10,898 nucleotides of DNA, from assembly GCA_005884605.1 (NCBI GenBank), contig VBBE01000004.1:1-10898 (forward strand), read 5' to 3'. The stretch comes from Candidatus Bathyarchaeota archaeon (GTDB lineage Archaea > Thermoproteota > Bathyarchaeia > 40CM-2-53-6). The position numbers and the translations under genes were made by a program. Positions within the stretch are counted from its first letter, which is position 1, and every line of letters begins with the position of its first letter. Of the stretch, positions 462-6,046 are shown in pieces. A model generated the notes under the pieces. It saw nothing but the letters and a program-made list of their open reading frames with translations. It was not told where the DNA came from and did no database searches.

Positions 462-1175
462 ATGCCGATAACACTTGAACAAGTCCGAAGATTCCTCGGC
501 AGAACCCTCCAAGACCCCTACGGCCGAGCCTTCGGCAAAGTCGTAGGCATCTCCGCCAACCTCAGAGACGAGGTAACCGGAGTAGGAATAGAAGAGGGCA
601 ACGGAGAATTCCTTCAGTGCCCCGGCGACAGGGTCGCCATAACCGGCGACACCCTCGTCCTCGCACCGGCTTGGAAGGTCGAAGCAGAGGAATTCCGCAA
701 AGAATTCGACATCGTAACCAGACGCCTGCGAGCCCTTGACGAGCTCTTCAGTGTCGGCGACATCCAGAAGGACGTCTACGAGGATTTAAGGAAACAACAC
801 GAGGACGCGATCAACGAGCTCAAAGGCAAGAGAAAGGAGATCATTGATACTCTCAGTCAACGAACCAGCACCCTCAACACACAACTGCGACAGCTGCAGA
901 CTCACCTCGCTGGCAACAAAATGTTGCACGCTTCAGGCGAGTTCGACGATATGAATTACAAAGCAGCGAGCGACGCCATCGACAGCGGCCTCGTCCGAGC
1001 AATGGCAGAGAAGAAAGACGTCGAGTCAATCTACAGTTACCTCCAGAAACTCGACGGCACCCAAGCTCCACCCGCTGCACAACAACCCCAACCAATATCT
1101 CAAGTCCCTCAACCAACAACGACAACCTCCCCTTCGAGAGACCCCGTTCTAGTACTTCACGTGAGGGAGACTTAG
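462..1175 (+). CDS. cdvA: CdvA, membrane-scaffold cell division protein
   Basis: CdvA is the first component of the archaeal Cdv division system. It assembles at mid-cell on the membrane and recruits CdvB. The 237-residue product has a PRC-barrel domain at residues 10-70 (FLGRTLQDPYGRAFGKVVGI, later LAPAWKVE), a long coiled coil at about 75-198, a Pro/Gln/Thr/Ser-rich linker at 200-226, and a short hydrophobic C-terminal strand DPVLVLHVRET. In Sulfolobus such a tail (the ESCRT-III-binding peptide) completes the broken winged helix of CdvB; assigning that role here is inference. The ATG at 462 is supported by alignment with the second CdvA-like protein in this window: both begin 11 residues before the LGRT motif. 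The stop codon overlaps the strong Shine-Dalgarno sequence of cdvB, matching the cdvA-cdvB-cdvC order known from Sulfolobales. Confidence 0.92.
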   Translation: MPITLEQVRRFLGRTLQDPYGRAFGKVVGISANLRDEVTGVGIEEGNGEFLQCPGDRVAITGDTLVLAPAWKVEAEEFRKEFDIVTRRLRALDELFSVGDIQKDVYEDLRKQHEDAINELKGKRKEIIDTLSQRTSTLNTQLRQLQTHLAGNKMLHASGEFDDMNYKAASDAIDSGLVRAMAEKKDVESIYSYLQKLDGTQAPPAAQQPQPISQVPQPTTTTSPSRDPVLVLHVRET

Positions 1176-1191
1176 GAGGATTCAAGGGCTG
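1174..1191 (+). promoter_or_regulatory. Strong Shine-Dalgarno and CTG start of cdvB
   Basis: AGGAGGA (1174-1180) overlaps the cdvA stop codon and lies 9 nt before CTG (1189-1191). Reading from that CTG gives M-F-R-K, matching the M-F-R start of the paralogue at 4864, which has a normal ATG. The first ordinary start codon in frame, TTG at 1228, lies 48 nt from this Shine-Dalgarno sequence and has none of its own. Confidence 0.72.
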
Positions 1192-2033: not shown

Positions 2034-2051
2034 AAGGAGGGACAAGAAATC
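2034..2051 (+). promoter_or_regulatory. Strong Shine-Dalgarno and apparent ATC start of cdvC
   Basis: AAGGAGGG (2034-2041) is followed after 7 nt by ATC (2049-2051), and then by codons for SASEELESLAVKYAKEA, the start of an MIT domain. Archaeal CdvC proteins typically begin with Met-Ser-Ala at this point. In this frame there is no ATG, GTG or TTG between the upstream stop at 1968-1970 and the ATG at 2289. Confidence 0.7.
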
Positions 2052-3194
2052 TCAGCATCAGAAGAACTGGAATCGCTGGCAGTAAAATACGCGAAAGAAG
2101 CCATCGAGCTCGAGAGAAAAGGCTCCAAACGCCTCGCCGCCACAAAATACCAACGAGCCATCGAGGTCCTACTCAAGCTATGCTCCCTCTACCCAGCCGC
2201 GCCTCAAAACAAAGTCTACACAGAACACGTAGAGGCATACAAGAAACGAATCCAAGAACTCCAATCCGATGAGCCGATAGCTCATTCCATGGATTCCACT
2301 GAGACCCGAGATTCCAAGACCATCAAGCTCGACCAGTGGGTTCTAACCGAGAAACCGGACATCAGCTGGAGCGACATTGCGGATCTAGAGAGGCCAAAAA
2401 GGGCAATCGAAGAGTCGATCATCTTCCCCGTCCGAAGACCAGACCTGTTTCCCCTTGGGTGGCCACGAGGAATACTCTTCTTCGGGCCTCCGGGTTGCGG
2501 AAAAACGCTCCTCGCCGCAGCCATTGCGAGCGAGATCAAAGGGATGTTCTTCTGCGCCGACGCCGCCTCCCTAATGTCAAAATGGCTCGGAGAATCCGAG
2601 CGAAACGTCTCCCAACTATTCACTAAGGCAAGAGAAGTCTCTGAAAACGGACAGCCCGCGATCGTTTTCATCGACGAAATCGACTCGCTGATGGGCGTCA
2701 GGGGAGAAGAGGTCGGCGGAGAGGTCCGCGTCAGAAACCAATTCCTCAAAGAGATGGACGGCATCCTTGACAAGAATAAGAAATTACATGTCTACCTCAT
2801 CGGCGCAACAAACAAGCCCTGGGTCCTAGACGAGCCGTTCATCCGACGATTCCAGAAGAGAATCTACGTCCCGCTCCCAGACGTCAAAGCCCGCATGGAC
2901 ATGTTCCAGATATACTCTCTAAACCTGAAGTTCCAGAACAACGTCGACTTCGCCGAGCTGGCCCGTAGGACCGAGGGGTATTCTGGGGGGGACATTCGCG
3001 ATCTATTCCAGTCCACCCAGATCAAGGTGGTTCGCGACTTCTTCCAGCGTGGCGCCGCTAATGATCTCAACGCGATTCCGGACCCGATTACCATGGAAGA
3101 CTTCGAAACCATCATCGTTGGCCGACGGCCAAGCGTTTCACAGAACATCATCAAGCGCTACTTCGACTGGGACGAATCATTCAAGGCATCATAG
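2049..3194 (+). CDS. cdvC: CdvC / Vps4-type AAA+ ATPase
   Basis: Vps4-family ATPase that extracts and remodels ESCRT-III (CdvB) subunits during cytokinesis. With the ATC start it has 381 residues. The MIT domain spans about 2-72 (LAVKYAKEAIELERKGS, KYQRAIEVLLKLCSLYP, EHVEAYKKRIQEL). After a short linker comes the AAA+ module: ISWSDIADLERPK, Walker A GPPGCGKT at 146-153, pore-loop region SKWLGESE at 177-184, Walker B IVFIDE at 205-210, sensor-1 Asn 255 in GATNKP, paired arginines 266-267 in FIRRFQKRIYVPLPD, and GYSGGDI at 310-316. Starting at the first ATG (2289) would remove the whole MIT domain although its coding sequence is intact. Either translation starts at ATC or the base at 2051 is a consensus error for G. 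The gene follows cdvB as in the Sulfolobus cdvABC operon. Confidence 0.92.
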   Translation: MSASEELESLAVKYAKEAIELERKGSKRLAATKYQRAIEVLLKLCSLYPAAPQNKVYTEHVEAYKKRIQELQSDEPIAHSMDSTETRDSKTIKLDQWVLTEKPDISWSDIADLERPKRAIEESIIFPVRRPDLFPLGWPRGILFFGPPGCGKTLLAAAIASEIKGMFFCADAASLMSKWLGESERNVSQLFTKAREVSENGQPAIVFIDEIDSLMGVRGEEVGGEVRVRNQFLKEMDGILDKNKKLHVYLIGATNKPWVLDEPFIRRFQKRIYVPLPDVKARMDMFQIYSLNLKFQNNVDFAELARRTEGYSGGDIRDLFQSTQIKVVRDFFQRGAANDLNAIPDPITMEDFETIIVGRRPSVSQNIIKRYFDWDESFKAS

Positions 3195-4863: not shown

Positions 4864-5472
4864 ATGTTCCGCGACAATCCCTCGTTAACCGATAGAATTC
4901 GAGAAGCCATCAAACCTACACCGATGAAGCAACGGATCCAGTTCGCCACTCACAAGCTCCGCACCCAAACAACGAAGTTGGAGCGCAGCATCACCCAGAT
5001 GGAATCGCGAGACCAGACCCTTCGGGACAAGTGCACAAAGGCCTTGGAAGCACGGGACACACAAACCGCGACCGTTTTCGCAAACGAGTGCGTACAGATT
5101 CGGAAACTAATCAAAACATCCCTCCGAAGCCAAATTTGCCTAGAACAGGCACTACTCCGTCTTGAGACAGTGGAACAGTTCGGCGATATGGTCCATAGTA
5201 TGGGTTCTGTCAGAGGACTCCTCGGGACAGTGAGGAGCGAGCTAGAGGGCAAACTTCCCGAGATATCAACCGGCGTAGGCGATGTTGAAGACTCGCTAGA
5301 GAACCTCACGATGGAGATCGGGGAGGCCGTTGACTCGGATGGAATGTCGATCCCGGTCAACGATGAATCTGCCCATATCCTGAAGGAGGCGGATCTTATG
5401 GCTGAGGCGAAGATGCGAGAGAAGTTCCCTGAGATTCCGCAGATCGTGAATCCAGCCCATCGAGTGAGGTAG
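4864..5472 (+). CDS. ESCRT-III / CdvB paralogue without winged helix
   Basis: A complete 202-residue Snf7/ESCRT-III protein. The N-terminal basic helices run from about 10 to 60 (TDRIREAIKPTPMKQRI, THKLRTQTTKLERSITQME, SRDQTLRDKC), followed by FANECVQIRKL, the core helix LEQALLRLETVEQFGDM, an acidic segment around MEIGEAVDSD, and the C-terminal EKFPEIPQIV, which carries a MIM2-like FPEIP at 188-192. It ends ten residues later and lacks the CdvA-binding winged helix, so it resembles the accessory CdvB1/B2-type subunits that drive constriction or scission. ATG with AGGAG (4852-4856) seven nt upstream is a normal start. It is followed after 7 nt by a second cdvA-like gene, repeating the arrangement at the left edge of the window. 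Confidence 0.92.
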   Translation: MFRDNPSLTDRIREAIKPTPMKQRIQFATHKLRTQTTKLERSITQMESRDQTLRDKCTKALEARDTQTATVFANECVQIRKLIKTSLRSQICLEQALLRLETVEQFGDMVHSMGSVRGLLGTVRSELEGKLPEISTGVGDVEDSLENLTMEIGEAVDSDGMSIPVNDESAHILKEADLMAEAKMREKFPEIPQIVNPAHRVR

Positions 5473-5479
5473 AATCTAG

Positions 5480-6046
5480 ATGTTATCTCCCGAGCTGGAG
5501 ACGAAAGCTCTCCTCGGCCGAACGGTGAGCGACATCTACGGCAGGCTATTAGGAAGAGTGATCGGTATCGAGCGAAACCCCTTCGGCGAGATGGAAGGCG
5601 TCCAAATAGAAGCAACGGGCGGAATTATTCTCACAGCGAAAGCTCGACAAATGGCATTAACCCCGAAGACTATCACAATTTCGCCGGAGTGGAAGCTGGA
5701 ATCCGAGGACATCATCTCCGAACTAACACTGTTGAGAAAGAGAGTTGGTGCTCTTGAATCGTTGAAAGATTCAAGGGAAATTGACGGTGAGATATACTCG
5801 GAGCTCTTGGAGTCTCAGAAGGCAGGCTACATGGATAAGGCGAAGGCGGCAAGTGCTTTGGTCAGCTCAATGCGATCAAGGCTCGCCGAGTTGACGGGAC
5901 AGATCACTAGTCTGACAAAATATCTCGTGAACGCTAAGTTAGATCATAAGAGTGGTGAGTTGGACGAGGCCTCTCTGAAACTAGCACAGGGCTCAATCGA
6001 GCCTAGTTTGAGGCCTTTGATCGCGGAGAACAGAGCACTGACGTGA
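5480..6046 (+). CDS. CdvA paralogue without C-terminal tail
   Basis: A 188-residue protein homologous to the CdvA at 462 over its whole length. It has a PRC-barrel at about 10-72 (LLGRTVSDIYGRLLGRVIGI, later ISPEWKLESED) and a coiled coil at about 75-185 with the shared pattern LVNAKLDHKSGELDEAS (LAGNKMLHASGEFDDMN in the other copy). It ends at RPLIAENRALT, so the proline-rich linker and terminal hydrophobic strand of the first CdvA are missing. It should therefore not be able to recruit the winged-helix CdvB in the usual way, and may co-assemble with the first CdvA or serve the adjacent CdvB paralogue. The ATG is preceded by GTGAGGT (5464-5470) with 9 nt spacing. It follows the CdvB paralogue by 7 nt. 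Confidence 0.85.
   Translation: MLSPELETKALLGRTVSDIYGRLLGRVIGIERNPFGEMEGVQIEATGGIILTAKARQMALTPKTITISPEWKLESEDIISELTLLRKRVGALESLKDSREIDGEIYSELLESQKAGYMDKAKAASALVSSMRSRLAELTGQITSLTKYLVNAKLDHKSGELDEASLKLAQGSIEPSLRPLIAENRALT

Follow-up and report, generated by a model that had tools for sequence, protein, structure and literature searches.

Putative near-cognate start codons in the ESCRT division genes cdvB and cdvC of Bathyarchaeia

Putative near-cognate start codons are a recurrent and conserved feature of the ESCRT division genes in Bathyarchaeia. In the 10,898-nucleotide stretch of Candidatus Bathyarchaeota DNA that was analysed (the window), cdvC very likely starts from AUC 2049 and cdvB from CUG 1189, and it is probable that these near-cognate starts have been kept by selection. 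The ATC of the window's cdvC appears as one branch of a wider trait, the predicted cdvB start being often AUH in Bathyarchaeia. The predicted position of the starts, their conservation and their enrichment in cdv genes come from sequence comparison. That they serve to cap protein levels has about an even chance of being right, and the involvement of any named regulator falls short of that.

The window carries the genes in the order cdvA-cdvB-cdvC and belongs to a Bathyarchaeia lineage. The nearest relatives are MAGs that carry the title Candidatus Bathyarchaeota or Crenarchaeota, and their sample names carry depth labels (e.g., 40cm) of what we take to be soils. A plasmid search with the window gave no match. 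The features that matter here are the following.

462..1175 (+), cdvA, with a CdvA coiled-coil (PF18822, E 5e-20), an ATG start and the stop TAG at 1173-1175
1175..1179 (+), GGAGG, Shine-Dalgarno of cdvB, 9 nt before the CTG
1189..1191 (+), CTG, inferred start codon of cdvB, CTG in 12 of 12 clade members and GTG in L012-L014
1189..1992 (+), cdvB, ESCRT-III protein, started at TTG 1228 in the ORF table
2034..2041 (+), AAGGAGGG, Shine-Dalgarno of cdvC, 7 nt between it and the ATC
2049..2051 (+), ATC, start codon of cdvC as inferred from sequence comparison
2049..3194 (+), cdvC/Vps4, 381 aa, with MIT, AAA, lid and Vps4_C
2079..2264 (+), MIT domain of cdvC, lost under a gene call from ATG 2289
2289..2291 (+), ATG, first canonical in-frame codon of cdvC and start of the 301-aa truncated database entries
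4864..5472 (+), second ESCRT-III gene (Snf7), with ATG, an ordinary start within the same window
5480..6046 (+), second cdvA-like gene (cdvA2), with ATG in the window

The start of cdvC at ATC 2049 had been proposed in a sequence-only reading of the window, and the elements of that proposal hold up. Reading in frame from the stop at 1968-1970, the first ATG, GTG or TTG is indeed ATG 2289, and AAGGAGGG lies exactly where it had been placed, 7 nt ahead of the ATC; within it, GGAGG occupies 2036-2040, 8 nt from the ATC. The reading also held that the MIT domain is encoded in frame with the ATC, and a domain search agrees: in the frame from the ATC, residues 11-72 match MIT with E 4e-6, at a score (27.3 bits) below the Pfam cut-off of 30. 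The AAA domain was found with E 4e-36, and Vps4_C exactly at its cut-off (21.3 of 21.3 bits). MIT was detected in all 17 related genomes, above the cut-off in 15 of them. The neighbours of cdvC are CdvA, by Pfam, and an ESCRT-III protein, by kinship. The N-terminal peptide of CdvC predicted from ATC 2049 is (Met-)SASEELESLAVK.

Relatives of cdvC were gathered by scanning one genome per species with the 381-aa protein and keeping the best 80 of 318, and more were added by a genome search covering 38 genomes of the order. A clade with 98-99% protein identity consists of the window and L001-L009, L018 and L087 (species genomes G001-G009, G017 and G020). The codon at the cdvC site is ATC in 11 and ATT in one of these 12 members, which supports the use of a non-canonical start. 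The 19 other loci with at least 81% identity (L001-L018 and L087, from 18 genomes) have ATC in 13 cases, ATT in one, GTT in two and GTG in three. ATG occurs in none of them, the opposite of the pattern that the sequence-only reading had named as the sign of a faulty base, with ATG in the relatives and ATC in this assembly alone. The relatives at 81-86% identity have ATC (L010, L011 and L015), GTT (L012 and L013) or GTG (L014, L016 and L017). Loci further removed, in part from the same order, do have ATG at the site, L099, L101, L102 and L104 being among the examples. GTT, which is two changes from ATG, is also found at the start site of cdvB in L185; at the cdvC site of L012 and L013 it follows a CTG.

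The pattern of substitution marks the same place. Among the 12 clade members, the variable columns at codon positions 1, 2 and 3 number 3, 4 and 7 in the 45 nt before the cdvC start codon, 0, 0 and 1 within it, and 5, 4 and 51 in the 237 nt (79 codons) after it. The codon-position bias sets in at the ATC, so protein-coding constraint begins at or near this codon. In 11 of the 12 members, no canonical start codon stands between the in-frame stop and MIT; the exception is L087, with a GTG at -1. In the wider group of 20, four members have a canonical codon upstream of a non-canonical cdvC site (ATG at -5 in L010, TTG at -5 and -17 in L012, TTG at -5 in L015 and the GTG of L087), and initiation in these four is therefore ambiguous. 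In L011-L014, CTG stands immediately before the site (-1), and L014 also has a TTG at -5.

A similar oddity in cdvB of the same operon is absent from the sequence-only reading. TTG 1228 falls inside a conserved PLKERI stretch, and the conservation of the protein extends upstream of it (LFRKFEERVHPIPLKERI). The window's cdvB has no canonical start ahead of the conserved N-terminal helix, and CTG 1189 is the best placed candidate. The Shine-Dalgarno that precedes it overlaps the TAG stop of cdvA by one base. In 11 of the 12 clade members, the variable columns by codon position are 0/3/1 before the CTG, 0/0/0 in it and 7/1/37 after it. The cdvB version from 1228 gave no Pfam match at E 0.01, and the protein is called ESCRT-III through kinship with relatives that carry PF03357.

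The survey of cdvB was then widened to 202 sequences, of which 150 were left once duplicates in the start region and two sequences lacking a match had been dropped; 148 of these had a cdvB-like ORF, and 139 matched the ESCRT profile. The 139 deduplicated loci are mostly from Bathyarchaeia, with some from other Thermoproteota. In 73 of them, the stretch from the preceding in-frame stop to the ESCRT core is free of ATG, GTG and TTG, and the other 66 offer a canonical codon upstream, whether or not it is used. The site codons of the 73 are ATC (29), ATT (17), CTG (13), ATA (10), GTT (1) and GAT (1), with no Shine-Dalgarno found in two. These main counts come from a stricter set, as the first site-picking had chosen implausible codons in some rows (L010, L016 and L021 among them). 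In the 56 loci with ATH, the spacing from GGAGG is 8 nt in 37, 9 nt in 14, 7 nt in 3 and 10 nt in 2. Relatives have ATG (L039, L080 and L190), GTG (L012-L014) or TTG (L056) at the same site, and the ATG of L039 against L037, and of L190 against L191, marks this column as that of the start codon.

Counted over 111 close pairs of ATH or CTG loci, cdvB differences at codon positions 1, 2 and 3 come to 352/182/1052 over the downstream 72 nt, whereas the 24 nt ahead of the codon give a flat 186/168/174. The start-codon column itself shows 0/0/14 (ATC/ATA and ATC/ATT only), a figure that is confined to ATH and CTG loci by construction and is silent on AUG. Near-cognate codons at a distance of 5-10 nt were found in the true frame in 69 of 71 cdvB loci, in the +1 frame in five and in the +2 frame in none, the first figure being inflated by a site-picking rule that prefers near-cognates over other frame-0 codons. 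When canonical loci are included (n = 93), the cdvB site is ATC in 35, ATT in 19, CTG in 13, ATA in 11, ATG in 6, TTG in 5, GTG in 3 and GTT in 1. AUN codons at the site are thus AUH in 65 loci and AUG in 6, even though the picking rule favours ATG, GTG and TTG. Among 167 close cdvB pairs, 105 are identical, 17 are ATH/ATH and four are ATH/ATG (ATC/ATG or ATA/ATG), so AUG is rare at the site but not forbidden. The remainder are one ATA/TTG pair, one ATC/GTT pair and 39 CTG/GTG pairs, all of which set CTG loci against the three GTG loci. A tree of the cdvB core, a quick one with long branches that was used only for the scatter of AUH, places AUH on many branches, with 23 changes between having a canonical codon available and not having one. 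Outside the class, 17 of 18 cdvB loci in a phylum sample have a canonical candidate.

The specificity of the trait was gauged by a control that asked, for every conserved gene, if a canonical start is present upstream of the conserved part. At 71 loci outside the window's group, the genes flagged as lacking one were cdvB in 39 of 70 cases, cdvC in one of 70 (L103) and other genes in 15 of 246. Of the cdvC genes adjacent to the 56 AUH cdvB loci, 42 carry ATG at the site, 4 TTG, 4 GTG and 6 something else. On syntenic contigs of 15 genomes within the window's group, the flag fell on 31 of 348 gene instances, in 10 of 70 families: ESCRT-III/cdvB in 8 of 34, cdvA in 3 of 26, cdvC in 10 of 14 and cysS in 1 of 13. 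The ESCRT-III/cdvB, cdvA and cdvC families account for 21 of the 31 flags, one of the three in cdvA being false, since ATG is in place in G008. The other six flagged families involve few comparisons, short stretches or probable antisense frames. Earlier screens had flagged 183 of 835 candidate ORFs, many apparently antisense, and 44 of 371 after overlapping ORFs were removed. By this comparison, predicted non-canonical starts are enriched in cdv genes and are not confined to them.

Several such cases were seen elsewhere. The homologue of the window's cysS (8735, minus strand) has an apparent CTG start in G002, as against TTG in the window. At one and the same position, cdvA2 has CTG in G017 and G012, TTG in G005 and ATG in G003. 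The cdvA genes of L042 (2357-3091) and L062 (2360-3091) have no canonical start near the conserved beginning, and in both an apparent ACG start lies 7 nt after GGAGG. In fam5, a downstream gene family, four of 13 members (L050, L064, L065 and L069) were flagged without a canonical start. The CTG of cysS and the flagged fam5 genes make a generally relaxed initiation possible.

The tRNAs were surveyed in G120, a genome in few contigs, where 41 tRNAs were called from 42 loci; in G005 only 15 tRNA matches were found, and the tRNA reading is that of G120. By criteria taken from general knowledge and from PMC6237735, one of its two CAU tRNAs is initiator-like (A at position 1 and a G-rich anticodon stem). 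There is one GAU tRNA, called Ile by ARAGORN. An AUH-reading initiator tRNA, with GAU or a similar anticodon, was sought in G120 and none was found. With a single initiator-like CAU tRNA, AUH would most simply be read by the normal initiator through a third-position mismatch.

Of the 20 genomes G001-G020, 18 carry two to three SUI1/aIF1 genes, whereas each of the 198 further genomes of the class that gave a match has exactly one. A separate search added one more copy each in G012 and G015. One SUI1 paralogue that was read (L254 and L255) is without the N-terminal cysteines. Every genome whose cdvC site reads ATC, ATT or GTT falls within G001-G020, and AUH cdvB outside the window's group goes with a single aIF1. 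The expansion of aIF1 and the cdvC starts are thus one coincidence on one branch, to be treated as a lead and not as evidence of cause. One extra aIF1 of the window's group may be a specialised factor, permissive or restrictive.

The explanation that we favour is that the initiator Met-tRNA (CAU) would read AUC and CUG as near-cognates on a strong Shine-Dalgarno, and the CdvC and CdvB products would begin with Met. These codons would be kept since AUG is, presumably, mostly selected against. Initiation would be weak and dependent on the stringency of the initiation factors (aIF1), and CdvB, in the window's lineage also CdvC, would be capped relative to CdvA. The synthesis of CdvB and CdvC may perhaps also be tied to translation of the upstream cistron. 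Two papers report that archaeal aIF1 discriminates against starts other than AUG (PMC6237735; PMC8211752), so AUH under a strong Shine-Dalgarno would be expected to give a low, aIF1-sensitive output. A more far-reaching version is a tentative one that we consider rather doubtful: the ESCRT-III operon of Bathyarchaeia would be under start-codon control through aIF1 stringency, as an infC-like valve on cytokinesis, AUH having been kept in cdvB on many branches for this purpose and the control being extended to CdvC in the window's group with the expansion of aIF1.

Near-cognate starts might also have arisen without selection, if initiation is permissive and the cdv genes drifted to such codons under a strong Shine-Dalgarno. 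The apparent CTG starts of cysS (G002) and cdvA2 (G017 and G012), the apparent ACG starts of cdvA (L042 and L062), the interchange of AUH and AUG in four of 167 close cdvB pairs and the two to three SUI1/aIF1 genes of the window's group, against one in other Bathyarchaeia, all fit this account. However, drift would not readily give a frequency of 39/70 for cdvB next to 1/70 for cdvC and 15/246 for other genes in the same DNA, nor 65 AUH to 6 AUG at the cdvB site, with AUG one step away, nor AUH on many branches of the quick cdvB tree. We regard it as unlikely, though with some real weight. A true start at ATG 2289, with CdvC made without MIT, is where gene callers place the gene in some databases (P0061, 301 aa), and this ATG is kept in 10 of the 12 clade members. 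Yet it is replaced in L008 (ATC) and L009 (ATT), the next canonical codon in L008 being 85 codons further on, and the MIT stretch is under protein-level constraint, with 51 of 60 variable columns at third positions. Such a start is very improbable.

Programmed frameshifting from CdvA to CdvB and from CdvB to CdvC would need no start codon at all, and the window leaves room for it: with the upstream stop of the cdvC frame at 1968-1970 and that of cdvB at 1990-1992, the final 19 nt of cdvB are free of stops in the cdvC frame, the cdvB frame and the end of cdvA share 8 nt, and no stop bars the route in 20 of 67 cdvB loci, the window's clade included. In the other 47, however, a cdvB-frame stop at or after the cdvA stop bars it, and in L015-L017 entry into cdvC is likewise blocked by a stop beyond the cdvB end; the stretches ahead of the two starts show no codon periodicity, and each start has a spaced Shine-Dalgarno before it. 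Frameshifting is even less credible than the start at 2289. The sequence-only reading had named a G-to-C consensus error at 2051 as its main alternative, since a single-base change would yield ATG. Against it, 11 other species genomes, with many synonymous differences among them, have ATC or ATT and none ATG, by which a base-call error is excluded, and the same codon class starts cdvB in 56 loci from many projects. Its probability is close to nil. Selected near-cognate starts remain the reading that we prefer.

Regulatory start codons of this kind have been described in bacteria. The infC gene, which encodes IF3, likewise has a conserved AUH start (AUU or AUC) in a chromosomal gene. It differs in that it encodes the fidelity factor itself and is autoregulated, whereas cdvB and cdvC serve cytokinesis in archaea, where start fidelity is the task of aIF1 (SUI1) and no feedback is known to us. 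Closer in form is sigR of Streptomyces, which, according to PMC5472188, has an IF3-repressed GTC start with an extended RBS, the codon being GTC in 32 of 34 species and GTT in 2 of 34; the same text gives infC as misannotated in most Streptomyces genomes. The likeness to sigR (PMC5472188) lies in the non-NTG start, the extended Shine-Dalgarno, the coupled operon and the conservation across species, and also in the exchange of codons, ATT replacing ATC here, with GTT in relatives. In contrast, sigR encodes a bacterial sigma factor, for which altered start codons and IF3 alleles gave the proof of the effect (PMC5472188), while the cdv case concerns an archaeal division operon examined here by sequence comparison.

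The features shared with infC and sigR are a start codon other than ATG, GTG or TTG that is conserved across species and a strong, spaced Shine-Dalgarno. The cdv starts resemble these regulatory starts, and we infer by analogy that such a role may carry over to the Cdv proteins. If so, the conserved AUH start of a cytokinesis gene would be a natural archaeal instance of infC-like, start-codon-based control, and the AUH cdv leaders would offer a ready set for testing the fidelity of aIF1.

In gene order (cdvA-cdvB-cdvC) and in its CdvA, MIT, AAA and Vps4_C domains, the operon is like the CdvABC/ESCRT-III operon of other Thermoproteota, from which it differs in its cdvB start, a canonical candidate being present in 17 of 18 phylum-sample loci outside the class. 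The start codons usually listed for archaea are AUG, GUG and UUG, as in one review (PMC7531240). The literature searched, mainly outside the subscription journals, yielded no treatment of AUH starts in cdv genes. A 2026 paper (PMC12818579) describes start codons of CdvB1 in Sulfolobales that are misassigned, but between Met positions.

Gene callers treat these starts unevenly. The sequence-only reading had predicted a call of CdvC lacking its MIT domain, and this proved right for a JGI entry (P0061, 301 aa), which has 99% identity to the window's cdvC and begins exactly at ATG 2289. It did not hold for six NCBI entries (P0005, P0007, P0008, P0010, P0012 and P0013), which have the full 381 aa and show M at the position of the ATC; the loci that they appear to represent are L004, L006, L005, L007, L009 and L018. 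Sorted by where they begin, the best 120 database relatives of cdvC fall into 26 at the site, 27 upstream of it and 67 that lack the site or spell it otherwise, the last class including some full-length entries since the sorting was by exact string match. For cdvB, the entries near-identical to L026 are shortened to 192 or 179 aa, and the NCBI entry P0128 opens with MKGFLHPNPPPF where G120 (L171) has ATC. Automatic annotation has thus partly accepted non-canonical cdv starts. AUH starts would explain the many CdvB and CdvC database entries without the N-terminal helix or the MIT domain, and such shortened entries could mislead studies of ESCRT evolution. In a further entry, P0118, cdvB (window residues 1-263) is fused directly to cdvC from residue 87, without MIT, which looks like a deletion or an assembly chimera.
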